Both the position numbers and the translations under genes were made by a program. From NCBI GenBank assembly GCA_009746045.1, contig RPFO01000015.1, forward strand, positions 3,353,836 to 3,417,835: a stretch of DNA of 64,000 nt, given 5' to 3'. Below the pieces are notes generated by a model. The model was not told where the DNA came from. It made no database searches and worked only from the letters and a program-made list of their open reading frames with translations. The stretch comes from Mesostigma viride. Lineage: Eukaryota > Streptophyta > Mesostigmatophyceae > Mesostigmatales > Mesostigmataceae. Below, one piece after another: positions 2,403 to 51,481 of this stretch (position 1 is its first letter; each line of letters begins with the position of its first letter).

Positions 2403-5400
2403 ATATTCATTGAGAATGATAGACTACGGAGGTGAGATGGGCATGCAACATAAAGAAAAACCCGATAACTGGGAGAATAACCCTGAAGAAATTAATAGTA
2501 ATCTGACACGGACATCCAAGCATCACGCCAGCTGCACAAGGTACAACTAACTAAACATCACAAAACTACACGCAGCAACATCGCTGCCGGCCCACCATGC
2601 AGGCCTGGAAGGGATCTAGACCGCATGGGTCGCGACAAAGTCGGCCCGGGTGCGGCGGAATAACACATCAGCCACGGTGCGAGTGAGGGCGAGTGACAGG
2701 CGCTGCCGCCAATACGAGGACCACGTGCGGGCCGACCACGGGGCGGTCTGACCCTCGAGGTCGAGGCGGTCTTCACGGCGCTGTCAGCACTCATGGAAAA
2801 ACTCCGCTGTCTTGGGGCCCATGGCCCCGAACTCCTCAAGGACAAAGGGGATGACCCGGTGGGGCCCCACATTGCCGTAGGAGGCAAACTTGTCGCGCTC
2901 AGCCACAGCGGCAGCAGCGCCGGCATCCACAGCCGCCTCAGTAGAGGATGTGGCGACCGGAGAGCGGCCGAGCCACGGAGACATCGATGAGCAGGTGGCA
3001 ACCCTGCCCGTCGTAGTCAAGCACGGTAATGTCGGGGCGGTGGTTGGGTGAGTAGAGGGCGGCCCCATCCGCGTCCTCGCACTTGATGGTGGAGTGGGGA
3101 AAGACCGACCGAACCATGGCACACACCACCCGGAGGAGAGCGGTATGGAGACAGAGGAGCCAGTTCTGGTTCTGCTGGCCACCCATGCACGCGATGTAGT
3201 GCGTCCCAGTAGTATCCAGAGCAAGCCCGCAGCTGCCGCAGGACGCACCCGCCGTGATGAGAGGTTGCGGGGCAAAGAGCTGGTGGCGGAGAGCGATGGC
3301 GTAAAGGGCCGGAACCAGCGTGAACAAAGGGCTCATGGGGAGGGCGCGCAGGAATGCGGACCCCACGCTCCCCTCAAGGGAAACGGAGTGAAGCCAAGCC
3401 TTCCCCTGATCGTTCAAGCTTGCATGCAGACCCATCCAGTCGGCACAGTGTAGTATACCCGCGTAGGTCTTTTGTTGTTTTTCATGAACGCAGGCAGGGA
3501 AGACACTAGGACTGACGACAGTGCCGGACACGCCGGGCGTGCCCCGGGGCAGGCGACGGTGGACGGCCTGAGCGGGGCGGACGAGGTCGCAAGCCTAGCT
3601 GCTGGATCCCGAGGTAAGAATCCTGCACAGCCTGCACAAAGGGGAAAGGGGATGGGGTGACCAAGTCGGGAATGGCGCTGACCGGGCGCTGGGGACCAAC
3701 CGGCGGATCTCCGCCCAGGCCTGAGCAACAGAGCCAAGGCGGAAGGCGGCGGGGGCGAGGCGGGCGGCGTGGGTGAGCCCACACCCGCCCATGCGGCAGG
3801 GGAGGGTGGCCAAGCGCATGGAGTGAGCTGGCAGGCTAGGGCCCGGGACTGGAGCACCTGCAAGGCGGCCTGAATGCGCGCGTCATGGCCTTCCGCGGCA
3901 AGCCGCACCAAGTGGGGGGGAGCGCCACGGAGCCAGTGAACCACCCACGGGTGGGCGCAAAACCACAGGAGGAGCCCTTTGGTCTGGGGGTCCTTGAGGC
4001 GCGCCCAAGTCTCGAGGACATGGGTGCGCTGTTCCACGGTGGCCCGGAGCTCCTCTTCGACGTAGTCAGGGTCACCCACAGGGACGCCCAGGCACGAGAA
4101 ACCACGCGCCCGCGCCAATGCCCCCGGGATAGCCGCGGGGAAGCCAGAGCAGTCCCCCTGGGGCGAAAAGACTGCACAGTCTTGCGGAGGGTGAGCCGAA
4201 GGTTGATGGCCGCCATGGCCACTTCAATTTAGGGCAGCCAGGGCGGCAACCACAGCGTCGGCCGGGCCAAGGGCATGGATATCGTCCATATAGGTGAGGA
4301 GCACGACATCCGGGTGCGCAGCGTGGACACCTTGGAGAGCCTTGTGCAGCGGGGCAGACAGGTAAAAGGGGCCGAGGGGGTCACCTTGCTGGGTTCCCGT
4401 GCGGGAAGCGATGTCGGCGAACGTCCCATCCTCCATGAGGAAGGAGAGTTGAGTGGGTTCGCCGTAGCAGGCTGCTGTCCACGCAAGAAGGTCAGGGAAC
4501 GCCTCGCCGACGGCCTCAAAGATGCTAGCCTTGGTGACAGCATTGAACGCATTGTGGCAATCCACCTTCAGCGCCACATGGGTCGGATGCGTCTCGAGGT
4601 AGGCCTGAACTGTGTGCACGATGATGTCGCTGCCCCCTTTGGTGGCGACGCCAAGCTGGGCCGCGACGGACTCCTCAGTATCACTCAGGTTGGGGCAGAA
4701 GTAGGCGCGAAACTCGGGGGCCTTTTGGCGACAAATGACCTTACTCACCAGCTTGCGTAGGACCTCGCCGCAAGCAATGGGACGAACGCGGCCAGCAGGC
4801 GGGGGGACGTCGTCTTTCAGGAGCCGGGCAATGAGGCGTGCGCGGCCCAGCCAGCCAAGGGTGCGCCGCGGGGGCCAGGGACCCCGCGGCCAAGTCGGTG
4901 GCAGCCTTAAAGAGTGCGGTCGCCCCGCCATGGCCCGCCATCACGGAGAGGTGCTCGTAGCGCCAGCCTGAGGGGCCGGTGGATGAGGCGCCGGTCGGCA
5001 GATCCTTGAGCACAGCCGTGAAGATGTCCAGGTCCAGGACAATAGGGTGGGGGGCGGGGGGTTGGCCGGGGCGGGCGCCGCAAAGGCAGGTTCGTCGGGG
5101 TGAAGGTCGCACAAAGCCTGCAGGGTCGGGGGAGTGGAGGGAGCCAACGCGGTCAGTTCGAGCTTTTGCATGGCCCGACTCAATTCACAGTACCTTCACC
5201 AACCGCATGACGTCTGCTTCCACCCGGGCAAAGGAGGCGGCCCCCGACACCCGGGTGGAGGCCGGAGGCTGCAGCGCCCACAGCCCTTTCCAATCACCTA
5301 GGAGGAACCGCCGGCAGCGAGCGATGACCGCACCCTGTACGCCACGCACGCCCCGCTCCAACGGCGCTAAGAGGAGCCGGGGGGTGACGAGAAACAGCTT

Positions 5401-5425
5401 GTGGCCGAGGTAGGTGGTATATATT
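2403..5425 (-). mobile_element. decayed LINE with restriction-like endonuclease
   Basis: This minus-strand stretch is occupied by a reverse transcriptase followed by a zinc-binding motif and a restriction-like endonuclease, the order used by R2/NeSL/CRE-type non-LTR elements. The string AGGTGGTATATATT occurs at both borders (about 2395-2408 and 5413-5426) and may be its target duplication, although short tandem repeats at the left border make this uncertain. Several frameshifts make the copy dead. This family has no APE endonuclease upstream, unlike LINE families B and C in this window. Confidence 0.65.
2787..5183 (-). pseudogene. reverse transcriptase plus zinc motif and PD-(D/E)XK-like endonuclease
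   Basis: In order on the minus strand: an N-terminal stretch with DLPTGASSTGPSGWRYEHLS (about 5040-4980); the RT core with RPIACGEVLRKLVSK, ALKVDCHNAFNAV (motif A aspartate), GTQQGDPLGP (motif B) and TYMDDIHALG (motif C, about 4270); a connecting region with WARLKDPQTKGLLLW (about 4000); a zinc-like CGSCG then H and C (about 3225-3190); and the endonuclease signature RPDITVLDYDG, then LLIDVSVARPLS, then FVLEEFGAMGP (about 3030-2800). The last part matches the R-P-D, D-V-S and E-x-G pattern of LINE restriction-like endonucleases. At least four frameshifts separate these pieces. Assignment of the endonuclease type is by motif only. Confidence 0.75.
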
Positions 5426-5434
5426 GCGCTGTAG

Positions 5435-5490
5435 GGTTACTACTCGATGTATCGGCGCGAACGTTGTAATCTGACACGTTGGGATGGGGA
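5435..5490. repeat. short dispersed repeat, inverted relative to 34092-34145
   Basis: This stretch, with GTAATCTGACACGT and a GATGTAT core, is an imperfect inverted match to 34092-34145. It lies at the upstream edge of the restriction-endonuclease LINE. It may be the border of a repeat family not otherwise visible here. Confidence 0.4.
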
Positions 5491-5825
5491 GGAGGACCTG
5501 GTCGATGTGCTATACTGCAGCGCAGCTCAATGGGGGAGGCTATTGCAGAGCTGGATCCACCAGCGTCATCAGGTGCGGTGGGAACAAGGGGTGTCTGCTT
5601 TCTGTGCGGATAAAAGGCCACCGCTGATAGAAGGGCCACAGCTGATAGAAGGGGGCAGGTGGAAGCGGCGGGGCGGGGCATGGTGGAGCAGGCGGTGGGG
5701 AGGAGGATGGCACCAGCCCCTGAAGCGATCGACCAGGATGTGGTGGACCTAGACCGAAACATAATTCATCTGAAAAAATGCGGAAAATGGTCATGCGGAA
5801 AATGCGGTGACGGAATGCAATATAG

Positions 5826-6268
5826 GATAATGCTCATAACTTTTGACACCGGCCATGAAATTTCATTAGGTTGGTTGCATTAGACTCGTCTTTTCAAGAC
5901 GAACACGCTGATATAATTTTCTGCAGCTATCGCTCAATATTTCCGAAGATACCGGCACCGCCCTGCCCAGCAAATATGGCTGTTTTTCAGCTCGATATGG
6001 CGGAATTCGACTCATCCCAACAATTAATCACAAGCGTCCGCGGCCCTGCACCAACTCGCTGATGAAGCCATGGCGTCATTGGAAACCCGGCCCTTGCACG
6101 CTATGCCGGACGCCACTGTCAGCATCCAGCCGCTCCACTCCACCGCTCCGCCGAACAGCGACCCTGCCATGGATACCCGCGAGGAGGCCTTTTCTGCCGA
6201 GGAAGCTGCCGCGTTTTTACCTGGCAAATGGCCAGGCCTTAATTGCCCCAGTACCTCAACAAACTCGT
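5826..6268 (+). mobile_element. LINE C-type 5' end (UTR plus start of ORF1)
   Basis: Bases 5826-6010 match the 5' untranslated region of LINE C at 17288-17470: shared runs include ATGCTCATAACTTT, the GACTCGTCTTTT pair with an inverted AAGACGA half, and GCTGATATAATTT. An ORF beginning at 6070 encodes about 66 residues resembling a low-complexity ORF1 N-terminus. No downstream LINE body follows, so only a 5' fragment remains. Confidence 0.6.
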
Positions 6269-6372
6269 AGAAACCTAATTATCAACCTTTGAACATATCA
6301 TCATGGTCGTATCATGGTCATATAAATTCCATATGCATGTTAAAAAGCCACGAGGTAGCCATGGCTGACGGC

Positions 6373-6742
6373 GGAGCTCATAACTTTCACGGTTGGGCAC
6401 CAAATTCGGCCGTGAATATCACAATCGCTTCGTCTTTCTAAGACGCACACGCTGATATAATTTTCTGAAGCTATTGCGCAATATATGGCGAGCAAACGCT
6501 CCTTCGCGCAACGCAGCCTGGCGGCTGCGCTCGGCCCTGAAAATTCGTCTGCAGCTCCGCGGGCTGCAGCTTCGCCCACCGGCCCAGAAGGCAGCGGCGC
6601 CACTAGCCAAGCTCTAGTGGTCGCCCAGCCCCCCGGGCTCACCTCGCCCGCAGCGTCGCCTGAGCCCAAGCGCAGTCGCCCTGCCGAGCCGAGCTGGGTA
6701 GAGCTCGAATTTGACGCCAGCCATGCAGCCCGGATTTTTTGA
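6373..6742 (+). mobile_element. second LINE C-type 5' end with ORF1 N-terminus
   Basis: Bases 6373-6484 again match the LINE C 5' region (GCTCATAACTTTCA, CGTCTTTCTAAGACG, CGCTGATATAATTTTC). The following ORF from 6485 (85 residues, ending near 6742) is Ala/Pro-rich with PEPKRSRPAEPS, typical of the disordered start of ORF1 proteins. It ends shortly before the CACTA terminus at 6794. Confidence 0.55.
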
Positions 6743-6793
6743 CAGGTTGAACGCATCCCGGCCTTCGCGTTTTTCGGATCGCATGCCTCGCTT

Positions 6794-7170
6794 CACTAGG
6801 AACTCAGATCTGAGATTTTTCTCAGTTTTTCTCAGTTTTCTCAGTTTTCTCAGGAAGGCTGCCTGAGATTTCCTGAGATTTCCTGAGATGTCCTGAGATT
6901 TCCTGAGATTTCCTGAGATCAACTGAGAAAAATCTCAGTTTTCTCAGGAAAACTGAGAAAATCACCTGAGAAAACTGAGAAAATTGAGAAAAAACTGAGA
7001 TCAGCCTGAGAAAGTCGCCTGGCCTGAGATTTTTTTTTCTCAGGAACGAAATTTCTCAGGCGCCCGGTTTTTTCTCAGGTTGCTGCCTGAGAAAATCTGA
7101 GACTGAGAAAATCTGGGAAACTGAGAAAAACTGAGAAAAACTGGCCTGAGAAAAACTGAGAAACCTCATG
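6794..7170 (+). mobile_element. CACTA-type left terminus with CTGAGAAAA subterminal repeats
   Basis: The terminus CACTAGGAACTCAGATCTGA shares its first 12 bases with the 9-kb CACTA element. It is followed by about 370 bp of direct and inverted copies of a 9-11 base unit (CTGAGAAAA / TTTTCTCAG / CCTGAGATTT). Dense subterminal repeats are the transposase-binding zone of En/Spm elements. No matching right terminus was found, so this end is orphaned or the element is deleted. Confidence 0.7.
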
Positions 7171-7716
7171 CACACAGAGAAATCGCATTCATACCACGCA
7201 ACCAGAAATCGCTTTGATTACAAATCATAATAATTTCTTGTGCAGTTGGAGTACAGCTCTTCAAGTTTAATAAGAACATCAATTTCAGTCACTAGACGAG
7301 TTGCTACAATCTGCTTCAGCGTAGCTCACTTTTCCATACGCCCTTGCACTTCTCCTCGTTGGTGCAAGGTCGCCCCGGCTAGATTCAGCCACATTCTTGT
7401 GCTGCCTACCCCCTCTCCCCCTCTGCCCACGATTCCCCCGCGTAGGTTCAGCCGCATACTCGCGGCCATCGCCACCACGGGCGGAATCAGCAGCATTTTC
7501 TGCTGCAGGCTGCCTCCTTCCTCTCCCCCTCCGTCCACGCTTCCCCGTGCAGGTTCAGACGCATTTTAGCTGCATGGGTCATCACTGTCGCTGCTAGGTG
7601 GAGCCACATCCTCTTGGCTACCATTATCACTGCCGCTGCAGATGGAGGAATCAGTTTCTGCTGCAGGCTGCTTACCCCTCCTCTTCCTTGGTGCAGGCAT
7701 GCCATCCTCGCTGCCA
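7171..7716. other. unassigned, possibly interior of the CACTA element starting at 6794
   Basis: Between the subterminal repeats and the next terminus lies pyrimidine-rich DNA with a loosely repeated unit of roughly 90 bp containing GTGCAGGTTCAG and CTGCTGCAGGCTGC. Read on the minus strand it gives Arg/Lys-rich peptides such as KMRLNLHGEA that recur in variant form, perhaps a transposon protein C-terminus. I cannot assign a function. Confidence 0.3.
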
Positions 7717-7782: not shown

Positions 7783-8473
7783 TGACCCGCTGGCTTTGCA
7801 CAGCCAAAAAAAAAAAAATTAAAATCAATTTTTGGCGGTAGAGAGACCATGGAGGGACTGCCCGCTGCCCGCTGTAGACGCATACTGTAGTTCGTAGAAG
7901 CGTACTCCTTCGCTGCACTCCGGAGAGGAATCGTGACGGACTGACGGTCTCCTTCGCTGCCCTCCAGAGAGGAGGCCGCTAAAGCGGCCGCTCGCTTCGC
8001 TCGCTGGGAGCTTTGCGCGGATTGGTTGGCAGTTCTTCCGTGCGCTTGGCGCTTCGCGCAGATTAGTGGTCAGTCAGTCCGCCCCTTCTGGATTGGCCGC
8101 GTACTCGGTGATGCCCTGAATAGTGTCGGATTACCTTACATTGCCAAATTAGTAATATAGATTCTTGACAAGTTTTGCGGGCTTCGCCCGCGACATTAGA
8201 GCTTGTACTTTTTGTGGCCGGTCCCCGGCCAGGGAGCCCCGGCTAGGGAGATGTGAGTCACCACGTACCTCCGTCGAGTGCCAAGTGGCGCTAGTCCCGC
8301 CAAGGAGCGCGCGCTAGCTTTAGAGTTTCGACCACAAGATTCATGGAGTTTGGCAAAAGGGTGAAGGAAAAAAATCCAAAATGCAATGGGAGGACCCTAT
8401 GAAGGCTCGAACCCGGGATGTCACGAGCAATTAAATGATGAGGTGTGCCTTTGCGCCTGAAGTCTACGTAAAC
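7783..8473. other. non-coding, nothing firm
   Basis: This stretch contains an A13 tract with AT-rich flank, GC-rich palindromic patches (GCGGCCGCTCGCTTCGCTCG near 7985) and a GGGCTTCGCCCG hairpin at 8179-8190. I see no gene or element borders. Confidence 0.35.
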
Positions 8474-8952
8474 CACTACAATACGGTTCGTAGGAGACGC
8501 GAAATGAGTGAGAATGTTACCCGAGCGGTAACGAGGATTCGCACTGTTGATTTTAACATATGTTTCTTTTTTTGCGCCATTTGGCGAGCATCGACTGGAG
8601 CCTGAACCTAGCGGGGGGAATCGTGCGGGGGAATCTTGCGGGGGAATCTTGCGGGGAAAAATTCCGAACGTGAATTTAGCGAAGTCCTACTACATTTTGC
8701 TTGGTACACGGTACTACAGTTTCGTCACTGAAAATTTTCTGTAGTTGCGTTGGTGTTTCGTACGTTCCGCTGAAATTTTCGTGTTCAGTTCCCAGATCAC
8801 AATTTGATCCGGGCGCAAAATGATTGGCTGTACGGTACGAACCAAAAACGAAATTTTAGTATCTAAGTTCCGCAGCGCTTGCTGAATTTGCCCCGGAAGC
8901 CCGGGGGCACTTTCCCCGCTGGAAAAGGTGTCCGCGGAAGCGTATTGTAGTG
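8474..8952. mobile_element. CACTA-type MITE, copy 1 (479 bp)
   Basis: The element starts CACTACAATACG and ends CGTATTGTAGTG, perfect 12-bp terminal inverted repeats beginning with the CACTA signature. It is flanked by the 3-bp duplication AAC (8471-8473 and 8953-8955), as expected for CACTA transposition. It has no coding capacity. A second copy lies inverted at 50915-51388 inside the Gypsy fragment, and the two align along their whole length, which confirms both borders. Confidence 0.85.
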
Positions 8953-19546: not shown

Positions 19547-19576
19547 CACTAGGAACTCGGTTGCCGTAAAAAATAC

Positions 19577-19905
19577 CACTTTTATCACTTTTTATCACTT
19601 TTTATCACTTTTTATCACTTTTTACCACCCAAAACCACCCAAAAGGTGGTATAAAGTGGTAAAAAGTGATAAAAAGTGGTAAAAAGTGATAAAAAGTGAT
19701 AAAAAGTGATAAAAAGTGATAAAAAAAGCGACTTTTACCACCTAAAACACGGCCACGGAGGTGGTAAAAGTGGTAAAAGGTGGAAAACGGTGGTAAAAAG
19801 TGGTAAAAAGTGGTAAAAAGTGGTAAAAAGTGATAAAAAGTGGTAAAAGTGGTAAAAGTGGCCAAAGTGGTAAAAAGAACACCACGACGAGCACAAAAGT
19901 GGTAA
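19577..19905. repeat. left subterminal decamer array of the CACTA element
   Basis: About 330 bp of TTTTTATCAC / TTTTTACCAC units, first in one orientation and from about 19645 in the other (GTGGTAAAAA, GTGATAAAAA). Such repeats are where the element-encoded DNA-binding protein attaches in En/Spm elements. Reading frames across them (YHFLSLF repeats) are artefacts. Confidence 0.85.
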
Positions 19906-19965
19906 AAAATGCAAGGGCTGAACCGACAACAAGTCAGTTTAGGCCCAAACAATGAATGATGCATC

Positions 19966-19971
19966 TTTATT
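19966..19971 (-). terminator. AATAAA polyadenylation signal of the CACTA transposase
   Basis: AATAAA on the minus strand, about 75 bases past the transposase stop codon and just inside the left subterminal array. It is the right distance for the 3' end of this transcript. Confidence 0.6.
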
Positions 19972-20214
19972 CAACATAATATCGGCATGATTACACTTGT
20001 GTGCAGCATCTAATGAGGCCGCAAAATGCTGGCGCAGCAGCATCAATCAGAATCATCCTTGGCATCACTACCGTTAAAATCACTGTCGTTCCCCTCGTTG
20101 CTAGAGGTTTGTTCTCTATAGTCCCTGACCGTGCGCGCGCGTGCACTTGTGCGCAACGGGGGCATGGGCTCCTTCCCCTTGTGTGATGCAGACGCCAAAG
20201 CCTCAGATTTCTTC

Positions 20215-20470
20215 TTTCTCTTGCGAGGCGGGGCTGCGCGTGAGGGCTCTGCCGCCGTGGTTGCCGGCGCGGGCTGCCGTTCAGCGGGCGGCTTCTTTTT
20301 CTTGCGAGGCGGGGCTGCGCGTGAAGGTCCTGCCGCCGTGGTTGCCGGCGCGGGCTGCCGTTCATCGGGCGGCTTCTTTTTCTTGCGCGGCGGGGCTGCG
20401 CGTGAAGGTCGTGCCGCCGTGCTTGATGGCGCGGGCGACGGATCAGCGGGCGGCGGTTCAGCGGGCGGCC
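20215..20470 (-). repeat. three tandem 81-bp coding repeats in the transposase C-terminus
   Basis: An 81-bp unit repeats about three times and encodes AAPPRKKKKPP followed by ERQPAPATTAA with substitutions. It gives a basic, disordered tail that could bind DNA or direct nuclear import. Confidence 0.75.
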
Positions 20471-22372
20471 GTTCAGCGGGCGGCTCAGGTGGGAAGTACC
20501 TGATGTCTTCCTGCCACCTTGTCGCCGTGCTTTGGAAAAACTCGTTCTCCAAAGCCCACCCGGTTGCCAGGTGACGGGGCAGCTTGCAGTGAATGACCGA
20601 AAGCTGGGGCTGATGCCGTGGGTCCAGCACAAACCCAACAGAGCTAACAGATGTTGGCCACACTAGCTTTGCCGTGCGTGGTGCCTCGGCGCTGCGGACC
20701 AACACCAAGCGTTGATCCCGAATGTAAGCCACCTCCGATGCATCGAAAAGCTCTACTCTCAGCACAAGCTGTTGAGTCCACTGCCCCACCGGCTGCACCA
20801 GCTTCGCCACGAGAATGTGGGTCAGGTAGCCGTACTGAGTGCTGCTTCCCTCCTTATGGTAGGCTACACCACAGTTTGCAGTCCGCCATGCTTGCTTCCT
20901 GTCAGCTTCTTTTGTCCGGTCATTGAAACCGTACAAGTGCACCCTATCATACTCCTCAGCCTTGAGCTGCACGCCGGCTGCTGCAGCCTGGACAAGCTCC
21001 GGGACCAGCGGCTGCTGGTTGAGTCCGATCCAATCTTTGAGCCATGAGAGGTCGCTGCACAAGGGCCGCCTGCATGCACATCATATACAAAGCAAGATAG
21101 CAATGCAAGAAAAAAAAAATTAGAATAACGGCAGTAGTCCTTGGAAATCAGATGAAGTTCCATATACTGAAAGAAAATCAGCTCAAAGAATAATAGCAAC
21201 TTACAATAATAGGACAGCGGCGTCTTACCAGTAGGCCTCATCGCCGTTGACTTCGGGATCTTTGTACTCCGCATTGGGCAGCGCATACTCCAACAAAATC
21301 GAGCCCACTTCATCAGATTCCGCGGCGGTGAAAGTGTAGAAATTCTTGCGGCTGCGCCCCCCCAACTCGACCTTCTTGGACGGGTCTGCGTGGATGACGT
21401 CCCAGATGTAGTAGCGGTCTTTTGGCTGAAAGAAAAAAAGAAAGCAAACAAGACATTGCAAGCAGCGCACACAAATATGCACAGAAATTAGCTGCATGCA
21501 GCACAAGACCGGGCCACAAGCAGCGCGTACATAACACTAAATCTGCACACAAATCCATAAAAAAAAAAAATCGGTCACTAGCGTGTACTTACCATCCCGG
21601 TTTTCACCATGTGATAGGCCAGATGGGTCAGCGCCTCAGACTTGCGATATGCTCCGTCCATGGAGCACTCCACATTGACGTTGGACAGCTTAGCTTTCGT
21701 GATGGCCCCCATCATCCGCTCGCCCGACGCCATGGTGCGGGTGTCACATCGACCCAACAAGGGGATTTGCTGGGCCAGGTGGGCCATCATATGAACAGAT
21801 TTTGCCATCTCAGACGCTGGCGCTATACGCTCCATCGCCACTGCAGCAAGCAAAAACATCTCGCCGCAGTCATCCAACTGCTGCTGAGTCGCCGGGCCGC
21901 TAGAAAACACAAAGTCCCAGGCCGCTGATTGAAGGAGAAATGCTTGCCGTGCATCGTCATCTAACCGCCCACGCAAGATGGTCGGGAGTTGCTTGCAAAA
22001 GTAGAGGATCTTGTCACGCGTCTTGGATTTTTCAGTACTCTTCGCATCGCAGAGCAAGCCACTGATCCGGCCGGTGAAGTAGTCGGGTAGGCTATGCGCC
22101 ATGATGTCATCGAGACCTGCGCATTACAACCACACGCAAAAAAATAACACATAGTAGTAACACGACAGCCGAAAAAAATAGTCAGTCCTATGTAAATCAC
22201 ACAGACCATAGTCAGTCCTACATATTAAATTTCCAAATTACGGGAAAAATAAAAACCCAATGTCACACTTACGCTTGATATCAGCCTTTTCCTCAGCCGT
22301 CAGCTGGAACCCGGGGCGCGGTGCTGGCGCCCTCTTCTTCTTGCGGCCTTTCTTCGGTGGACTTTGGTGGTC

Positions 22373-22445
22373 TCCCTCCGGTGGTGGGTCTCCCTCCGGT
22401 GGTGGGTCTCCCTCCGGTGGTGGGTCTCCCTCCGGTGGAGGGTCT
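22373..22445 (-). repeat. 18-bp coding repeat (EGDPPP)4
   Basis: Four tandem copies of an 18-bp unit encode EGDPPP in a short linker exon of the transposase, followed by a basic patch PPKKGRKKKR. Confidence 0.85.
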
Positions 22446-23160
22446 TCATCAGGCCGCCACAGCTCCGGGTTCAGACCGAGGACCTTCAGCCTGCCACGAA
22501 GTGACCCGGTCGCCATAGCCTTCCCTGCATATAGTACAAACAGAAAAAAAAAAAAAAAAATATTACATCAGCTTTCCATGTGAACAGATAGGCCACAGTC
22601 AATGTATGCATGCAACAATCACAATGAAATGATACAATGAAATGTTTAGCAATTACCGCTTGTGCAATGAATGACCCGCTTGAAGTTGTTGGGACACAGG
22701 TGGAACTCGTCAATAAAATGACGGATCTTCAGGTGAACCCAGTACGGTAACTTGAGAAACGGCTCGGGCTGCTTTTTTAGCGTAGCACAGTACTTCAGGT
22801 AGCCAGCATGGTCCATCTCCTGAACAACAGGAGCGTGAGCCGGCCGGCGGGGGTCACCCTCGGGAAACATGCGGTCATTGCCAAGGAGAACGATACGGCC
22901 ATTTGAGATAAAAACCCCACGCCACTCATCACCATGTAGGACGCATTGATAGTACCCTGCATCTGGAATGTTCAGGGACTTGGAGTATGCCGGGTAGTCG
23001 TGAATTATGCCAGCAAGAATGGACCTCACAAATGTCGTAGTGTAAACACCCGCCACGTCCAGCGTCACATCACAAATGTAATACCCCTTCCACAGTACCA
23101 GGAAGTCCTCAGCGATCAAGTCCAAAAAAATGGTCATGTTCTTGGGTGCCTTCCCCTTCA

Positions 23161-23234
23161 GTTAAGTAATGCAATACGCATTACTTTTGCATACTTGCAA
23201 GTATGCAAAAGTAATGCGTATCGCATTACTTAAC
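23161..23234. repeat. 74-bp palindrome, copy 1
   Basis: An inverted repeat with 36-37 bp arms and essentially no loop, centred on CTTGCAAG. It is identical to copy 2. Each copy could extrude as a long cruciform or form a perfect RNA stem. Confidence 0.92.
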
Positions 23235-23253
23235 TAAGATTGGCGTTCGCTCC

Positions 23254-23286
23254 TGGGGTACCGGGTTCGAATCCTCTCGGAGGCAC
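23254..23286 (+). promoter_or_regulatory. tRNA-like B box region
   Basis: GGTACCGGGTTCGAATCC followed by CTCTCGGAGGCA resembles the T-arm and acceptor end of a tRNA. No complementary 5' acceptor strand or anticodon arm precedes it, so it is not a tRNA gene. It could act as an internal Pol III promoter element, or be a tRNA fragment captured by the element. Confidence 0.5.
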
Positions 23287-23288
23287 GG

Positions 23289-23419
23289 AAATATTTGCGG
23301 CGGGTAGGCCTGGGAGGCCGAGTCAAAATATTTGTGGATGTCTATGTTTGGCGGAGGCCGGGTAGGCCAAGTCGAAATAGGAATTACGGCGCGAGGCTGG
23401 GAATAGCCGAGTCGTAATT
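23289..23419. ncRNA. three related hairpins with a conserved GGCY-GGG-RGCC core
   Basis: Hairpin 1 (23289-23333) has outer arms AAATATTT/AAATATTT, hairpin 2 (23342-23380) CTATgTTT/AAATAG and hairpin 3 (23382-23419) AATTACG/CGTAATT. Inside each is GGCC-TGGGA-GGCC, GGCC-GGGTA-GGCC or GGCT-GGGAAT-AGCC, followed each time by GAGTC or AAGTC. Outer stems differ in sequence yet keep pairing, and the inner stem shows a C/T to G/A compensatory change. This suggests a conserved fold, transcribed or DNA-level; no transcription evidence is available. Confidence 0.55.
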
Positions 23420-23486
23420 AATCAAGTCACCTCGGTAACGAGCGGTGTGTGCGGAACGCCGGATTTCCCCACGCGGCCCAATTTTA

Positions 23487-23560
23487 GTTAAGTAATGCAA
23501 TACGCATTACTTTTGCATACTTGCAAGTATGCAAAAGTAATGCGTATCGCATTACTTAAC
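23487..23560. repeat. 74-bp palindrome, copy 2
   Basis: Same 74-bp sequence and orientation as copy 1; the palindrome makes orientation nearly meaningless. No differences from copy 1 were seen, implying recent origin or conversion. Confidence 0.92.
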
Positions 23561-24563
23561 TCCTTCATGGCGCCCACAAGAAGCACCATATAGGGCAAAA
23601 CCGCCCATTCACCATCACCCACTCGGGCAAGTTCACACAGGAAACAAACGCGGGCCAGCTGCTGTGGGTATCCATGAAAGACCTTGGACATACTCCGTCA
23701 AAATTCAGAAGGAAGATGGTGTTCCGCGGCTGGCTGCGAAAGTCCCAGTTGTTCTTTATGTGCTGGATGGCACGGCTGTCTGCACGAACAGGTCCATGCA
23801 CAAGAAACACCAGACGTAAAAAGAAAGGTATCCATCAGAGCAGTACAAACAAAAGATAAGCGCAAGAGGAAAAATCTCGAACTTGATACTTTGGCACACA
23901 TTGCATAACAGAAGGCGTAGAAACAAGTGCAAACCTGCCTTTCAAGCCGTCCACAACGCGCGTGGATGAGTCTGGCTCCCTGTTTTCATGTTTCGCAGCG
24001 TACTGAAGGGCTTCCGCCATTTCCGGGACTCGGAACCAGGCCCTAATCCGATCCATCAGGGGGAAGTGCCTAACCTGGCGATGCGCTTTCCGCGAGTTGA
24101 CGATGTCACCGTTTCTGTCAGTGTACGTCTCGTAGCGCGACAGCTTGCAAAGAGGGCAGCTCTTAGTAATCTTGTCCTTGTACAAGTAACCCTCGCATGG
24201 GCAGGCATCGTACACACGGTACCCCAAGCCCAAGCCTTTGATCACTTTCCGTGCCTTCGAGATACTGTCGGGCAGAGCGTTGCCCGCGGGGAGAACGTTT
24301 CCCAACAGCTTAAAGAGCTCATCAGCAAAGGTCTGAGGGCATGAGTTTTCCCCCATTAGCGTCAGCAATTGCAATGTAAACATCAGGGCCTTGCTCTCAG
24401 ATCCCGGGTACAATGGCGTATCGTCCTTGACTCTGGCCACTGCTTTGTCATAATTTCTAGCAAACTGGCGTGCTGCATCCTCTCCACTGGCCGACCCGTC
24501 GTCAGGGTCCTCGGCCATGAATTCATCGACTGTCTGTCCTTGACGCATTTACAATCTCTACAT

Positions 24564-28251: not shown

Positions 28252-28332
28252 GAAACCATTTGGAATGATGGCCTGTTAAGCTGTTCTTAACAGTGCTTAA
28301 TTGTGTTGTAATGCTGGCAAACTCTGCATTTT

Positions 28333-28695
28333 CCCCTTTTTTATCACTGTCATTTTTACCACTTTGTGGTATTTTTTTACCACCCTCATTTTTACCACTT
28401 TGTGGCGTGTTTTTACCACCCTCACTTTTACCACTTTGTGGCGTGTTTTTACCACCTTACTTTTACCACTTTGTGGTATTTTTTACCACTTTGGTGGTAA
28501 AAGGGGTGGTAAAAGGTGGTAAAATGATTTTACCACCTGCTTTGCTCCTAGCGTTTTCCCACCGTTTTATCACTTTTCCCCCACTTTTACCACTTTTTAT
28601 CACTTTTTACCACTTTTTACCACTTTTTACCACTTTTTACCACTTTTTACCACTTTTTACCACCTACTTTTACCACTTTTACCACTTTTACGGCA
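28333..28695. repeat. right subterminal decamer array of the CACTA element
   Basis: TTTTTACCAC and related units, including a spaced version with TTTGTGG, run up to the right terminal repeat. The core matches the left array, so the same protein could bind both ends. Confidence 0.85.
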
Positions 28696-28710
28696 ACCGA
28701 GTTCCTAGTG

Positions 28711-31417
28711 CTTCAGGGGGTCACTCCGGCCCGCCACTTTTTGGTTATGCTGCATGCTCGACGCCAATGCCACGCTCCCCGTGGGCACTGCAGGCAGACG
28801 CTTTGCGCCTGCTGACGCTACTGCTAACGACAACACTCCCCTGTTTTCTGCCTTTTTGCGGGATAGCGGGATGGTTGCTGTCAACTGCCACTTCCAACGT
28901 CCCTCACGGGACTTGGTCACTTTTCGTGGCCCTAACGGCCGTCAGGCCTGTTTGGACTACGTGGTGGTACGGCAGTCAAGGTGCACCTCGGTCCTGGACA
29001 CCCGTGTGTTTGACACGCCCATGGTGTGCTCTGACCACCGGTTGGTGCACGCGACCATTCGGCTCCGGTTCCACGTCCCCGTGCCGGTGCGCCGCGCCCC
29101 AGTGGTCCGCCCTGACTGGTCTGCTCTACGTCCGGTCAAGGGAGATCCTGAGGACTGGACGGACGCCGAACACGAGCGGAACCGGTGCCGACGGGAGTAC
29201 CTGTCGGCCCTGGGCGCCCGGGCGGACGTCGACGAGCTGGACAAGGGTGCCCCCAACGCCGCCATTTTTGCGGGCTTTGCGGCCCGTGCCCCGTTGCTGG
29301 CGGCCTGGCACCTGCCGGCCATGCCCCGCCGCCGCCCCGGCCCGCTCTACCGCCAGGACCCCAAGGTCCTGGCCGCCCGGCACCGCCTCAAGCGTAACCG
29401 GGACCCGCTGCAGAAACCAGTGCTCAAGGCCGCCCTCGCGGACGAGGCCTACGAGCACGCTCAGGACGCGGAGGCGGCCCAGTGCATCGCGGATGCCAAG
29501 GCCTGCCAGGCTCGCAACCCTGGAGGGCAAGGACATGTGGTACCACCTCGACTGGCTCGGCGGCCGGCGGCAGCGCACCCCGGTGGAGCACACGGGGGAC
29601 GGCACGGCGCCGGTCAGCCTTGACCGCTGGTTGGCCCACAATGTTTCCTTGACCGGTGGGGCTCGCGCCCCCCCCCCGCCGCTTCACCCCGAGACGGCCG
29701 CCCGCCTCGGGGTTGCCGGACCCCCGCCGCCGCCAGCGCCCCCCTCCTCGGCCGCGGACTACCAAGTCCCCGCCTTGCAGGAGGGCTGCCTTGCCACTGA
29801 CGACGTCGTCCCCCCCTTCACTTTGAAGGAACTGGACGGCGCCCTTGCTCGCCTGCGGTACGATGCGGCGGTCGGTGCCGACCACCTTTCTGCTGAGCTG
29901 CTGAAGACCCCTGATCCGACGGTTAGGGATCTTCTGCTGGCGTTCTGCAACCGTGTTCTGCTTTCTGACGAGCCTCCGCCTGCTGAGTGGCAGACGGCCA
30001 TCCGCGTCATGCTGTACAAGAAGGGCTCTGCTGCTGACCCCGGTAACTACAGGGGTGTCTGCCTCCAGAGCGCCGCGCTGAAGGTCTTCATGCGCATGAT
30101 GCTGCACAGGCTCCGCGCCGCGCTGGACCCACACCTGGGTGAGTCTCAGATGGGTTTCCGTCGTGGTCGTAACACTGTCATGGCTGTGTTTGTCGCGCGC
30201 CGGTTGATGGAGGAGGTGCGTCGCCTTCCCCCTGACAGTTTGCCGCTGGTCTTCATTTTTGTTGACTATATCAAGGCCTTTGACACGGTCCTCTGGGAGG
30301 CTCTTTGGGCTCTGGATCGAGTGCCACCTGCGTTTATTGCTGCCATTCGCCGACTGTATGAGGGCTCACAGGCAGTAGTGCGGACTGCGGAAGGCACCAC
30401 CCCACCATTCCCCCTTCACCACGGGGTGTGGCAATGTTGTGTCCTGTCCCCATACCTGTTCATTATTGTCGTGGATCATGTCATGCGCCGGGCACGTGCG
30501 CGCTTTACTGCTCTTAAGGGGTTCGAGCCAGGCTTGGACATCCTTAACGTGAAAGAGCACGGCGGGGTTAGACCTGGTTACCGCCTTGCCGACCTGATTT
30601 ATGCGGATGACACCACCCTCATCGAGAGCCCCGAGCACATTCAGACCTGGCTGGACTGTCTGGGCCTGGAGGCGCGGGCGGTGGGGTTGGAGATTAGTGT
30701 CAAAACTGAGGCGATGGTGATTGGGGCCTCCAGTACACCACCGCTGCCGCGCCTGCTCGATGGGACGGAGGTCCCGTTCCGCGACCGCTTCAAGCTGTTG
30801 GGGAGTTGGCTTCCTGACACTGCCGACGATGTGGACACCCGCATCAGTCGGCCTTGCCTGGGCCAAGCTCCGTTCGCTCAACACCTACTGGCGCTCGAAG
30901 GGCCTGGGCGAGCACCGCAAGCGCATGCTCTTCAAGGTCCTCGTCCTCACGGTGCTGACGTATCGGGCGCCGAGGCGTGGACACTCCCACGGTCCCACCC
31001 AAACTGGCAGCTAGGCTAGACGGCACGGTTTACAGGATGCTCCGTCAGGTCCTTAACGTAGGGTTTTCCAAGCGTCCGTCATCAAAGTCTTTGTATCATG
31101 GCATGCCTCGTATTTCGGACGAGATTAGGCAGCGTAGGATAGCATTTGTAGGACACCTTGCTCGCACCAGCCAGGTCGACACCGCCCTCGGTCTGGCCGG
31201 CACCCAGCGGCTTGGCCAGCCAGGGCGCCACATTCTGACCTGGCCTGGCCCTGAGGGCATTCCCAAAAGGGTAGGGAAACCTGTCACGAACTACATCCAG
31301 ATGTTGATGGACGACCTAGTGGTCCCAGCCCAGTTTGAGCACCGCATCCACTCTCTCTCCCGTCTTTGGACTGCCATGCAGGACAAGACGCGGTGGAAGA
31401 GGATTGTCAAGGCGCAC
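28711..31417 (+). pseudogene. LINE C ORF2, part 2: endonuclease C-terminus and reverse transcriptase
   Basis: Continues the LINE C endonuclease with LDANATL, CLDYVVVRQ and CSDHRLVHATIRL (catalytic D/N and SDH motifs). A linker with RRRPGPLYRQDPKVLAARHR leads to the reverse transcriptase: FTLKELDGALARLRYDAAVG, LYKKGSAADPGNYRGV, MGFRRGRNTV, FIFVDYIKAFDTV (motif A), LADLIYADDTTLI (motif C) and RFKLLGSWLPDT. The C-terminus has RRIAFVGHLARTSQVD and RWKRIVKAH, cut by the half-LINE at 31417. Frameshifts occur near 28753 (4-base insertion), 29515, 30843 and 30990. The catalytic residues are present, so this family may have intact relatives elsewhere. Confidence 0.85.
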
Positions 31418-35820: not shown

Positions 35821-38800
35821 TCAGCGCCCCTTGCTGCCGTGCCGCCCCCCCCCAGCAGCCACCGGTGCGTGCGAGCGATACCCGTTCTGCGCCGCCCCCC
35901 CATGGCCCCGCTCGGGCGCCCTCCCTCCCCCCCCCGCCTTCTTCTTGCTCTCCTCGGCAGCCTTCTTGATGCGCACGAGCTCCTTCCTCGCGCCGAGCAC
36001 AAGGGAGCTCGTGGCGGTGAGCGACGCCAGAAGTTTGTCGCGGTTGGGGAACTTGGCGGCCCCCTGGGCCACCGCCATCTCGGCCAGCAGCGAGGTGATT
36101 GCGGCCTGTGACTGCGCCAGCATCTTGGCCACCACCGTGTGCGGGGATTCGTCCAGGTCCAGCAGCTGGCACGCGGGGCAGAACCAGTCGCCCTCTGGCA
36201 CGCTCTGGGGGATGGGAGGGGGATGGGCAGGCGGGTGGCCAGGTGGGCGGATTGTTTGGGCGAGGGGGGGTTTGCAGGTGAGGTGAGGTGAGGTGAGGTG
36301 AGGTGAGGTGAGGCGAGGCGAGGCGAGGCGAGGCGAGGCGAGGCGAGGCGAGGCGAGGCGAGGCGAGGCGAGGCGAGGCGAGGCGAGGCGAGGCGAGGCG
36401 AGGCGAGGCGAGGGGAGGCGAGTTGAGGTCAGAATGAACTCTGCATGGGCCCAGGTAGGACCTGGTAGGGCCATGGGACGTGCACAATGAGCCGTGCATC
36501 GCTTGCAGCAACCCACCCCCGGATCTGCGTGTAGCAGCCGCATGTATAGCAACCCGCGCCCCTTTCCCCCCCCCCCCCCCCGGCTGTATCCTGCGATAGC
36601 TAATAGGAGCAGCTGGTTGAAGCCCATGTGGCATGATGGACATCGGCCGCGGAAAGATGCGAGGCAGCGCCATGCCTTCGATTTGCGTGGGAGAGTGAGC
36701 TGCGTCCGCCAAGGGGGAGATATGTTTTATTCATACCTGACAGTAGCAAGTGCTGGTTCTGATTGTACTCATGTCCCCTGCGCTTGTCAACGCCCTGCCA
36801 CACACCTTTTAAGAGGCTTTTTATGGCACCAAACAATGGCAGATCTTCCATCTGACGAACAACACTTTCTTCCATTTGACAATGGCTGCCATGGCGCGAC
36901 GCTCTCGGGCTCAAGTTTCGCAAATTTCGCTACCCACATTCTGTCCGTATTTTTCTTCGCTACGCAACAGAGTTAAGAAATAAGCTATTTTGCTTTTATT
37001 GAAATTTTCATCACTGGATAGGACACGTTCTTATGAAAACAAACAGCCTCATGATACTTGCTGCATCCCCTCTCCCGCCCCCGCCCCCCCTGTGCGAATC
37101 TCCCAGAAAATCCGGTGATGATGGATACCATGGCACACTGGCAGTCCTACATGACAAGGTGCCAACCTCCAACCCCCAAATATAATCATCATCCACGAGA
37201 CAACCAGCGCAGGCCAGAAATAGGGGGAATCCTGACCATGGAATATGATCATATGTATAACTACTAGCGAATCACTATTAGCAATCAGTTGCAAAAAGAG
37301 GGCTCACCTCCAGCCCAAGGCATGCGACGTGGTACACCCCCGGACACGCGTCGCAGCACAGCAGCTCCCCTCCCTGCGCGCACAGTAAGCAGACCTCGTC
37401 ACTCGCCGCGAGCGACCCCTCATGCCCCTCGGAATACTCCGCCCCCTCCTCCTCCCCTTCCTCCCTTCCCTCCTCGTCCTCCTCCTCAGGCTCATCCTCC
37501 TCCCCCTCGTCCTCCCGCTCCTCCTCGTCCTCCTCATCCTCCCCCTCCCCCTCACTCCCGTCTGCCAGCATCGCCGCCACAGCCTCCTCCTCGGCCTTGA
37601 CGGCGAGCCGCTCCTCCAACAGCACATCCTCGAGGCAGTCCTGCAGCGAGCGGCCGTTGGAGAGGAAGGTGAACGCGCAGGGGCGGTGGAGCGTGCTGCC
37701 CGAGTGGCGCTCAAACACGGACGGCGTCACGATCTGTGCGCGCAGGAGAGGAGAAGAACGTTGAAACAAGGCACCATTTTGTTTAGAAAGGTTAGACTGC
37801 GTCGCGATCCGGGAGCAAACTGGAGAGGACGGTGCACGGGCAGCGTGGGCGTGCGTGGGCGAGCAGCTCCAAGGGGGGAGACAAACCGGCATGTGTGCGC
37901 AGTGTGCGTGAGAAAAAGCTTCGGGAAGCGACTGATGTGACGGTACTGGGGCAGTCAGCAGGGCAGACCTTCAGATGCGGTAAACCAAGACACCCCTCCA
38001 CCACGACGCATGATGCTATTTACACCATCCGCCACTCTTCTCGCACTTTCCACCCCCACCCCTCTAGCACAGGCTTACTAAAGACGCGCCCGTGCTACCG
38101 GGTACCTACGGTCCGCTGCTCAAGTGCAGCAGAACGTCCACAGCTGCAAACAACAGAACATCCACAGCTGCAGACAGCAAAACATGCAAAGCCGCAAATA
38201 GCAGAACGTCCACACATGCAAATAGCAGAACGTCCACAGCCGCAAACACCAGAACGTCCACAGCTGCAAACAGCAGAACATCCACAGCCGCGGACAGCAG
38301 GGTATGCATAGCTGCAAGCCAGGTGGGTGCGGGCAGCCTATCCAAGGCCTGCCACACACGAGAGCCATGACCGGCCCACAGGCAGGGGCGGGCCTACTCC
38401 CATGCCTGCATGATGCTGGGGGGGGGGGGGGTTGTGACCCTTTGCCCATGCTAGCCGCGCGACACGCACACCAGCCACATGGGCACATGAGCCGCGCTCA
38501 CCCACTCTGACCACGCCAAACCTGGCTAGCTACAGGAGCCCAGTGGACGGTTAGTCAGAACATGGCTGGGCAACCCTGATGTGTGTGGGCCGCACCCACC
38601 CACATCATACACCGGTCCTTACAGCCAAGGTACCACTGTCACCTGTCACGGATCCCCTCCGCCCACACAGCGAATAACGCTCTGTGTGTGCATCTCTCAG
38701 AAAACAGTCACACATCTCTCCCACCAGCTAGAGAAGCAGACCGCAAGTCAGCAGCGCCCCAAACTGCACGATACCTCCTTTCGCCCATTCCAATACCCAC

Positions 38801-48700: not shown

Positions 48701-49035
48701 CTGGCTTACGTGTAGAGCGACTAGATGACCTAGACGGTGGGGCCGGAAACAGCATGCTAGTGATCAGGGCGTGTGTTTCGATCAGGATGCCCACACCACC
48801 TTGGCCCGGCGCGGCGCCTCCACCGTCATAGTGGAAGTGCCAGCCGGCCTGCGTGGAGGTCGCCGACCATAAGCCCGTTGACCCCTTGCTGTGGGTCGAC
48901 GGTGCGCCGATGCTCCTGAACTCAGAGGACGGCGATCTGGTTGTCGGCACACATGGCGATCAGCTCGTTGAAGCGTTGACGTGCCGGGGTGCCACTCAGC
49001 TGGTAGAACGATCTGCAGAGAGCCGGGTGCGCGCA
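48612..49035 (-). pseudogene. LINE B ORF2: endonuclease N-terminal half
   Basis: On the minus strand: RQRFNELIAMCADNQIAVLS, VQEHRRT (E motif), GWHFHYDGGGAAPGQGGVGI and LFPAPPSRSSSRST, with one frameshift. It is homologous to LINE C 19140-19400. It joins, across the insertion, to the frame starting at 46915. Confidence 0.75.
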
Positions 49036-50914
49036 TGCAATACCAAGAATGGGCCGTTGCCCTATTACTAGCGGGGCCTGGGTGGGGTTGGAGGTGGGGG
49101 TGGAGAAGGGTAGTGATGGAGGTAGGGGTGGAGGGCCTGCCGAGAGTCGGTACTCTTCCTACGAGGGGGAAGCGTTAGTCGTTGTGTGGGCCATCAAGCA
49201 CTTCAGGCCATATCTCTTTGGGCGGGTGTTCACACTTGTCACTGATCACCAGCCCCTATTGTGGTTGATGACCAGCGACAAACTCACGGGTAAGCTGGCC
49301 CGGTGGGCAATGATCATTCAGGAGTACCACCTGACAATCGTCCATCGGCCAGGTGTGGATCACTCCAACGCGGACGTCCTGTCCAGGTATGCTCTACCAA
49401 CCACTGTTGACAACACCGGTGCGCGGGCCCTAGGGGCCGAGAGCTCGCCTGGGTCTGTGGTTTTTGTTAATGCTGCAGGCTTTGCTGACGCCGACGCCGA
49501 GGCAGACTGGCGCGCAGTCGAGTATACAGTCGCAGACTTCGCGGCAAGCAGCAATGCAGTTCACCCTTCTCCATTCACCGGGCTGCCGCTGGCCTCCTTG
49601 CGTTGGGAGGAAGGTAATTCTCTGTCCTTTGACATTGACAATCCCTTGGCACGATACCTAGCACTCCAGGTGGTGTTGGTTGGCCACCTCACAGTGGACT
49701 GCAACATGGGTGATGTGTGGCTCGATGGGCGTGCATGTGTTGGAGCAGGTCCAAGAGATAGCTCTCACCCCAACCCCTATTGATTGGTCCTCAGCCCAGC
49801 GGGACGCTGAGTTGAATATGTAGGGTGCAATGTTCATAGGGCGGTCACCTACTCATGGGATGCCGGGGTCCTCCACAAAATGCTCGGCAAGCGCACAGTG
49901 GTGGTGCCGCCGCCTCACAAGCGGGTCGCCATCGTCCAGCAAGTCATGAGCGCGGTATGGCCTCCTGGGTGGTAACCGCGCTTTGGCGCTAGTGCGCGCC
50001 TCTTATTGGTGGAACGACATGCGTGCCACAGTCGCGCAGGTCGTTGCTAGCAGTGCGCGCAGTGTGCCCGGGTCAAGGCCAGGTTCAATGTGGACCACGA
50101 TGCAAAAGAATTGATGAGCCTACCCATCAGAAGGCTCTTCTAGGCCGCTGGCACGTAGACTTGTGTGGGCCCTTTGATGAAAGTGCAGATGGCCACAAGT
50201 ATGTCATGGTGTGTGTCGAAAGTTTTAGCAAGTGGGTCGAGCTCATCCCCATTGCTGACAAGCAGGCCGCCACGACCGCCAAGCACTTCGCCGACATCAT
50301 CGCCAGGTTTGGGGCCCCCGCACGCGGAGGTGGTAACCGACCAGGGCGGGGAGTTTCGGGGGGAGTTTCCGGAATTGTTGGATGTGTGTCGCATTGATCA
50401 CCGTCGTACTTCTTGGGAGCATCCTCAGGCCAATGGTTTGGCTGAGAGATGGGTGCAGACTGTCAAGCAGGCTTTGCGCAAGTGGAGCCTGCAATCAGCA
50501 TCATCCAATATGTGGGATCGTGAACTGGCGTGGATAGCCATGGGTTACCGGATGTCACCCCAGGAGTCGCTCGCCTGTTTTTCCCCGTATGTCCTGTTGT
50601 TTGGGCGCGCACCCTTGCTCCCCACGGAGGCGCAGAGTGCACACCCCACCCCTATGGCGTTTGACAATGCCAATCAGTTTCTGGCTGAGGTGACCGCACG
50701 GGCGGCTACCTTCCGCACGGCTATGCCCATCGCCATGCACAACTTGTTCATCGCCCATGCAGCACCGAGATACCCTGCGCTCCGCTCCGCCCCGGGGGGG
50801 CACTTACATGGCCCGTCAGCTGCATTTTCGTCCGGGGCAGTTCGTATTTCTCCGCACGCAGCTGACCGACACTCTTGACGTGACTGCGGGGCCGACCATC
50901 TTGCGGCCGCCGCC
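49036..50914 (+). pseudogene. Gypsy polyprotein remnant: RNase H and integrase
   Basis: RNase H: SRYSSYEGEALVVVWAIKHF, TDHQPLLWL, then IVHRPGVDHSNADVLSRY. The linker region to 49780 stays open and ends in a stop. The integrase zinc part is decayed (RALALVRASYWWNDMRATVA, then ARVKARFNVD in another frame). The catalytic core follows: GRWHVDLCGPFDESADGHKY (first Asp), VESFSKWVELIPIADKQAAT, VVTDQGGEFRGEF (second Asp) and EHPQANGLAERWVQTVKQAL (Glu). The reading shifts frame near 50325 and 50030. Integrase inserts retroelement cDNA; this copy is inactive. Confidence 0.85.
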
Positions 50915-51388
50915 GACTACAATACGCTTCCGCGGACACCTTTTTCAGCGGGGAAAGTGCCCTCGGGCTTACGGGGCAAATTCAGCAAGCGCTGTCAGAA
51001 CTTAGATACTAAATTTTCGTTTTTGGTTCGTACCGTACAGCCAATCATTTTGCGCCCAGATCAAACTGTGATCCATGGGCACTGAACACGAAAATTTCAG
51101 CGGAACGTACGATCCACAAACGCAACTAGAGAAAATTTTCAGTGACGAGACTGTAGTACCGTCTAACCAAGAAAAATGTAGTATAGGACTTCGCTAAAGT
51201 CACGTTCGGAATTTTTCCCCGCAAGATTCCCCCGGATGATTCCCCCCGCTAGGTTCAGGCTCCTGGCTCCAGTCGATGCTCGCCAAATGGCGCAAAACGA
51301 ACCAACAATTGTCAACGGTGCGAATCCTCGGTACAGCTCGGGTAACATTCTCACTCATTTCGCGTCTCCTATGAACCGTATTGTAGTC
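50915..51388. mobile_element. CACTA-type MITE, copy 2 (inverted relative to copy 1)
   Basis: Full-length reverse-complement match to 8474-8952, with ends GACTACAATACG and CGTATTGTAGTC: both terminal bases differ from copy 1 (C to G at each end). A simple 3-bp duplication is not evident at this site (GCC left, GGG right). It splits the Gypsy open region between integrase and the PHD finger. Confidence 0.85.
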
Positions 51389-51481
51389 GGGATCGTCGCC
51401 ATCAAGCCATGGATCTGGGGTTGCCATTTTGGAGGGCGTCGACGGCAGTCGCACCACGGATAACGTAAGCAACCTCAGTCC

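Follow-up and report, generated by a model that had tools for sequence, protein, structure and literature searches.

The Locus and Its Features

The window (the whole stretch of DNA that was analysed, 64 kb) contains a CACTA-type transposon that is interrupted by a single insertion of 402 bp at positions 23160–23561. The insertion consists of a palindrome, a middle of 250 bp and a second palindrome, and is flanked by a short duplication. Within the middle, there are a stretch resembling the 3′ end of a tRNA and a series of hairpins. The features are as follows:

22646–23161, minus strand: portion of the CACTA-type transposase frame past the insertion (Pfam Transposase_21, below the cut-off)
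23155–23159, strandless: left target-site duplication, CCTTC (CCTTCA if 23160 is included), equal to the right copy and single at the empty site in locus L008
23160–23235, plus strand: left terminal palindrome, 76 nt (38 + 38, one mismatch)
23236–23243, plus strand: left inner end, AAGATTGG, with seven of its 8 nt inverted-complementary to 23478–23485
23264–23287, plus strand: stretch resembling a tRNA 3′ end, with the B box GGTTCGAATCC at 23264–23274
23289–23333, plus strand: hairpin 1, core GGCCTGGGAGGCCGAGTC at 23307–23324, the weakest of the three
23342–23380, plus strand: hairpin 2, core GGCCGGGTAGGCCAAGTC at 23356–23373
23382–23419, plus strand: hairpin 3, core GGCTGGGAATAGCCGAGTC at 23395–23413, the strongest of the three
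23428–23447, plus strand: possible fourth hairpin with a GTAA loop (predicted fold, judged by eye)
23478–23485, plus strand: right inner end, CCAATTTT, including TTTT at 23482–23485
23486–23561, plus strand: right terminal palindrome, in the same orientation as the left and identical to it at 76 of 76 nt
23562–23566, strandless: right target-site duplication, CCTTC (CCTTCA if extended to 23567), equal to the left copy

The element has AGTTAAGTAATGC ends. An element of 402 bp has room for 134 codons at most, which is too short for a retrotransposon protein. The initial annotation of this DNA had recognised the main parts of this layout, with a middle of 252 bp; the middle is present, with a length of 250 bp (23236–23485).

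Insertion into a CACTA-Type Transposon

The same genome contains the interrupted transposon a second time, in L008, which is one of 20 stretches of 10 kb each from contig C1. This copy is without the element and has one CCTTCA between the flanks: positions 19574–23160 and 23562–24313 of the window align to adjoining bases of L008, with six bases shared, and the main pieces of the two transposons are 96.0, 99.6 and 99.8% identical. Because the L008 copy shows the empty target, the repeat at the two flanks is a genuine target-site duplication, as had been annotated. It had been given as 6 bp (CCTTCA); the sequence is compatible with 5 or 6 bp, depending on the assignment of the A at 23160, i.e., its length is 5 bp (CCTTC) where this first A is counted as the element's own, and 6 bp otherwise. 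The duplication flanks the whole element, and by eye there is none around either palindrome by itself. Two separate insertions without joint movement are ruled out, since the whole alone carries the duplication and L008 lacks the whole. Precise insertion as one unit into a target with a 5- or 6-bp stagger is thereby shown.

The annotation had further described a non-autonomous insertion that arrived later than the CACTA-type element and disrupted it, and this is confirmed by the empty site in L008 together with a reading frame across the joined site: once the element and either of the two CCTTC repeats had been removed in silico, a minus-strand frame of 214 amino acids spans the junction. An open frame across the joint is weak evidence alone, because plus-strand frames of 170 and 123 amino acids span the same joined site. 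The interrupted frame matches Pfam Transposase_21 with an E-value of 3e-4 and 20.5 bits (cut-off 28.6), and DUF4218 in its neighbourhood reaches 26 bits (cut-off 27), both being below the cut-off; the fragment across the joint reached 14.4 bits, in the part that was already known, which adds no support. The viral contig L001 contains a weak transposase relative (42% across residues 17–58 of the query).

Terminal Palindromes

The two terminal repeats are identical at 76 of 76 positions when aligned directly and at 74 of 76 when one is inverted, and are thus direct repeats at one asymmetric base pair. The proposal of twin identical palindromes as terminal direct repeats therefore holds, with the length corrected from 74 to 76 nt because the first base is the A at 23160. 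Folded as DNA, a single palindrome reaches –35.1 kcal/mol, compared with a mean of –8.1 for shuffled sequences, and none of 200 shuffles folded as well; as a palindrome pattern of 24 bases is, in addition, expected 0.00 times per window, a chance origin of the palindromes is excluded. The G+C content of the palindrome is 33%, against 48 to 63% across the 2-kb bins of the window. If the element is considered as a whole, it has terminal inverted repeats with arms of 84 nt that are 96% complementary. Of these, 76 nt follow from the palindromes and the remaining 8 nt do not: the 8 nt just inside each palindrome are inverted-complementary at seven positions, which was equalled in 22 of 100,000 shuffles.

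A search of positions 22900–23800 against Rfam release 15 gave 27 matches up to an E-value of 10, all on the palindromes and all below the gathering score, and 24 of these were to microRNA models. A microRNA precursor was rejected, as the matches sit on near-perfect palindrome hairpins on both strands and below the gathering score. At the gathering level, there were no matches in the window or in the sampled loci L018, L016 and L006, and no family matched the middle. Two exact palindrome patterns, with no mismatches allowed, found nothing in the viral contigs or the genome contigs. From the identity of the palindromes a recent arrival is plausible, although gene conversion between the repeats would give the same picture.

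The B Box and the Ends of the Middle

The tRNA-like B box that had been reported is present in exact form, GGTTCGAATCC at 23264, and is the sole GGTTCGANNCC on either strand of the window. The 24 nt which begin with it are identical (24/24) to the ends of tRNA-Arg in mycobacteriophages (20 of the 190 matching records being listed), found in a phage search with an E-value limit of 10 and a best E-value of 0.03; in the one phage record that was inspected, the match stops one base past the tRNA. Judged from this match, the stretch shows likeness to a tRNA rather than descent from a phage, because the E-value is 0.03 and T arms are conserved. A whole tRNA in the middle was considered and rejected, none being found. 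Upstream of the B box within the element, there is no A box (TRGYNNARNGG with up to one mismatch). The sole such site in the element is at 23404, downstream of the B box, and sites of this quality occur about 1.1 times per 400 nt on the plus strand of the window. The TTTT at 23482–23485 could be the end of a Pol III transcript.

Before the right repeat, there is no polypurine tract: purines make up 6 of 20 bases on the plus strand and 11 of 20 on the minus strand. No primer-binding site was recognised by eye past the left repeat, 25 sampled loci having yielded no host tRNA for comparison, and no poly(A) or LINE-like tail was seen. Taken as a whole, the middle has an ordinary fold energy (28 of 200 shuffles were as good, z –1.22; for the minus strand, 156 of 200). 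No match was found among plasmid sequences, and a scan for bacterial-type promoters and terminators, which is irrelevant to Pol III, found no sites.

Three Hairpins with a Shared Core

The core GGCY–loop–RGCC–RAGTC occurs three times on the plus strand of the element, and the pattern used has no other match on either strand of the window. A pattern restricted to one loop length finds hairpin 3 plus a chance-like site at 56416, a number of sites that was equalled in 6 of 100 shuffles. Pairing is good on the plus strand alone and poorer on the opposite strand, which favours RNA or one-stranded DNA.

The outer stems had been described as differing and still pairing around the shared core. In a matrix of swapped arms anchored on the core, the best pairing for each arm was with its own partner, and the summed score was matched by 30 of 20,000 shuffles of the full arms and by 20 of 20,000 shuffles of the distal parts only. 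Taken singly, hairpins 1, 2 and 3 were equalled by 3,549, 881 and 255 of 20,000 full-arm shuffles, respectively. By fold energy, 310, 116 and 21 of 2,000 shuffled arms were as low, and both arms of hairpin 1 had a better partner in one of the other hairpins than in each other. In a duplex test without anchoring, 7,897, 5,077 and 2,385 of 20,000 random places in the window equalled hairpins 1, 2 and 3, and the own arms of hairpin 1 were not its best match. Thus, on the joint anchored score, as against the weaker single and other tests, the set is probably real, the comparison being one of three paralogous hairpins and not of copies of the element. The description applies to the set (30/20,000); hairpin 1 by itself is ordinary, and two of the tests are weaker. 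By these tests, hairpin 3 is good and hairpin 1 is weak alone.

A reading of the internal loops as k-turns was dropped by eye, since the loops differ among the three hairpins. The core of hairpin 3, as an exact pattern without mismatches, had no match in the viral contigs.

Relatives in the Sampled Genome

No complete second copy of the element is present in 34 sampled loci, which comprise 252,800 bases including 34,768 N (i.e., about 218 kb; L009 and L033 are entirely N and L018 is mostly N). One decayed, solitary relative of the palindrome adjoins a long run of N in L018 (1039–1127): both outer palindrome arms are recognisable (18/18 and 26/31), about 41 bases apart, around an unrelated centre. 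A neighbouring pair of equal summed score was given by none of 1,000 shuffles that preserved the palindrome, and the single best match was equalled in 3 of 1,000. The flanks of this relative, CAATT and CATTT, agree by eye at four of five positions, which weakly hints at a 5-bp duplication.

Long palindromes are not unique to the element in this genome, because L016 contains a near-perfect palindrome of 74 bp (1652–1725), unrelated to it in sequence and with no second copy nearby. It is followed by a tandem array with a unit of 152–153 bp that is rich in inverted repeats (1747–2271) and is likewise unrelated to the element.

Interpretation and Comparison with Known Elements

The locus presents a real insertion with an unusual anatomy, and this is most probably a variant form of the miniature elements already known. 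The mode of movement that is put forward here is a tentative one, falling somewhat short of probable: the 402 bp would be a non-autonomous element whose ends are MITE-like units without spacers, the whole being moved as one in trans. Each 76-nt end would be a pair of transposase sites placed back to back, i.e., a foldback, MITE-like unit without a spacer, and two such units in direct orientation would bracket a passenger cassette that resembles a gene for a small RNA (the 3′ half of a tRNA, the three paralogous hairpins, a putative closing stem and TTTT). A DDE-type transposase acting in trans would make cuts staggered by 5 bp at the outer termini and move the whole. Owing to the symmetry of each end unit, lone units could move or persist as well, as the decayed relative in L018 suggests. 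The weakest step of the proposal is the cassette, which is probably a passenger and perhaps transcribed.

The MITE-like layout fits the L018 relative, in which the arms are kept and the centre is different, and the complementary inner ends. The terminal inverted repeats by which MITEs and foldback elements are recognised are present in the element. Against this reading, the ends are direct at the one asymmetric pair, as LTRs are, and L018 is a single decayed locus; the window and the sampled loci showed neither an autonomous partner nor a transposase with ends of this kind, and the sample of about 218 kb contained no second complete copy. In the literature surveyed, the closest approach to terminal direct repeats that are long palindromes is Muta1, which is, from the parts of the published account available, a foldback element with a 10-bp imperfect palindromic end motif and duplications of 8 or 9 bp (PMC5225508). 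Foldback elements and MITEs such as the derivatives of Muta1 resemble the element in being non-coding and in having inverted complementary ends, whereas the element differs from Muta1 in having palindromes of 76 nt rather than a motif of 10 bp, direct ends, and a duplication of 5 or 6 bp rather than 8–9 bp (PMC5225508, same parts).

The main rival, itself rather unlikely, is an atypical TRIM: the palindromes would be very short LTRs, and the element would have been copied through RNA and inserted by the integrase of a full LTR retrotransposon. By analogy of layout, TRIMs and SMARTs are the nearest class. In the available portions of a survey of this class, TRIMs are defined by small size, the lack of retrotransposon proteins and further copies with different duplications (a pair of complete copies, or one together with a solo repeat), the duplications are of 4–6 bp, and the polypurine tract can be missing from diverged members (PMC4717578). 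As to further copies, the sample of about 218 kb gave no complete one and, in L018, the decayed relative of the palindrome. The element is below 1500 bp, is without a protein, and has terminal direct repeats and a duplication within the range of 4–6 bp; in being small and non-coding with such ends, and in occurring in green algae, it is like TRIMs and SMARTs, which the same portions report from Chlamydomonas and Volvox down to a size of 292 bp (PMC4717578). An LTR-type retroelement is represented in the window by a piece with an RT_RNaseH match at 49007–49783. The class is also a loose one, as shown by the TRIMs of bivalves, which, in the text available, lack an unambiguous primer-binding site and have inverted repeats and palindromic pieces in the inner domain (PMC6934838).

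On the other side, there are the absence of a polypurine tract on either strand, the failure to recognise a primer-binding site by eye, and the termini. As a rule, LTRs end in TG...CA; the termini of the element are AG...CT, and in contrast to TRIMs and SMARTs, its repeats are near-palindromic and repeated hairpins occupy its middle. Long palindromic terminal direct repeats were not found in the titles and opening lines of abstracts that were listed, which cover part of the matching open-licence papers. Among TRIMs, those of the TRIMp3 group (Cassandra, Helenus and Ajax) are of interest for their Pol III sequences: from the parts of the report available, the LTRs of Helenus and Ajax hold sequences of Pol III genes, and the group is like the element in small size, terminal direct repeats and a Pol III-gene sequence, with a 5-bp duplication in one plant Helenus (PMC10886601). 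In TRIMp3, as described there, the LTRs contain the small-RNA sequence, and its promoter boxes are kept, whereas the element has a B box alone, in its middle; Helenus has a primer-binding site and a polypurine tract, neither of which was seen in the element (PMC10886601). The terminal repeats of the element contain no tRNA-derived A and B boxes of the kind found in Helenus. Taken together, the MITE-like inverted-repeat layout is somewhat ahead of the TRIM layout.

Quite unlikely is an accident, in which two palindromic MITEs came by chance to lie on either side of an unrelated stretch and moved with it this once. The absence of another complete copy from the sample of about 218 kb agrees with this, and two near-symmetric units have a chance of about one-half of lying in direct orientation; however, the complementarity of the inner ends directly adjoins the palindromes, and a repeated hairpin core would be rare in an arbitrary stretch. 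It is similarly improbable that the element represents a new class, in which a structured non-coding RNA gene with one protein-binding hairpin repeated three times lies between two identical palindromic direct repeats, each forming a complete hairpin that acts as an origin of transposition or replication, and the RNA hairpins recruit the mobility machinery.

Very improbable is a SINE-like or small-RNA element, in which a Pol III transcript of the middle was mobile and the palindromes were added or acquired at insertion: the B box within a stretch resembling a tRNA 3′ end, the complementary ends of the middle, the TTTT and the three plus-strand hairpins speak for it, and the missing upstream A box, the lack of a poly(A) or LINE-like tail, the position of the duplication outside the palindromes and the ordinary fold of the middle speak against it. 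Compared with tRNA-derived SINEs, the element is alike in small size, TTTT and a B box in a tRNA-like stretch, and differs in having terminal direct repeats, no upstream A box and no tail seen; SINEs are recognised by a 5′ head in which Pol III A and B boxes are spaced as in a tRNA and by the absence of terminal direct repeats, and the element has neither trait. Replitrons, another comparison, are elements of green algae which, in the available parts of a secondary description, have terminal direct repeats of 5–11 bp, duplications of 2–8 bp, a length of 0.9–4 kb and an HUH endonuclease (PMC10741241). They are like the element in the terminal direct repeats, the short duplications and the occurrence in green algae, and differ in that their repeats are of 5–11 bp and not described there as palindromes, whereas those of the element are of 76 nt and there is no room for an endonuclease (PMC10741241).

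If the element should prove to be one of a family, that family would unite, around repeated structured RNA, two features that current schemes separate, namely palindromic ends in the style of foldback elements and the direct-repeat layout of LTRs. It would provide a test of how symmetry of the ends enables single and composite units to move, and of whether DNA transposition can spread small RNA genes. Should it have no other copy in its genome, the element is a curiosity.

Other Features of the Window and the Sampled Loci

Arrays with a 10-bp unit (TTTTTATCAC and TTTTTACCAC), including long inverted repeats, are found at 19556–19888 and 28551–28683 of the window. The stretches 8455–8951 and 50916–51407 are related and lie in opposite orientation about 42 kb apart, being 86–96% complementary in pieces. 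A frame at 28269–31019 contains an RVT_1 reverse-transcriptase domain, and its 29 listed relatives are 24–39% identical. In L006, a run of frames at 3465–7630 includes two with bacterial Ig-like Big_12 domains; a frame of 440 amino acids (5008–6330) is without a match in Pfam and presumably resembles, judged by eye, a capsid protein of polinton-like viruses. At 37278–37970 of the window, there are matches to a PHD domain and to TDBD, a plant-type domain, and these point towards a host of the green lineage.
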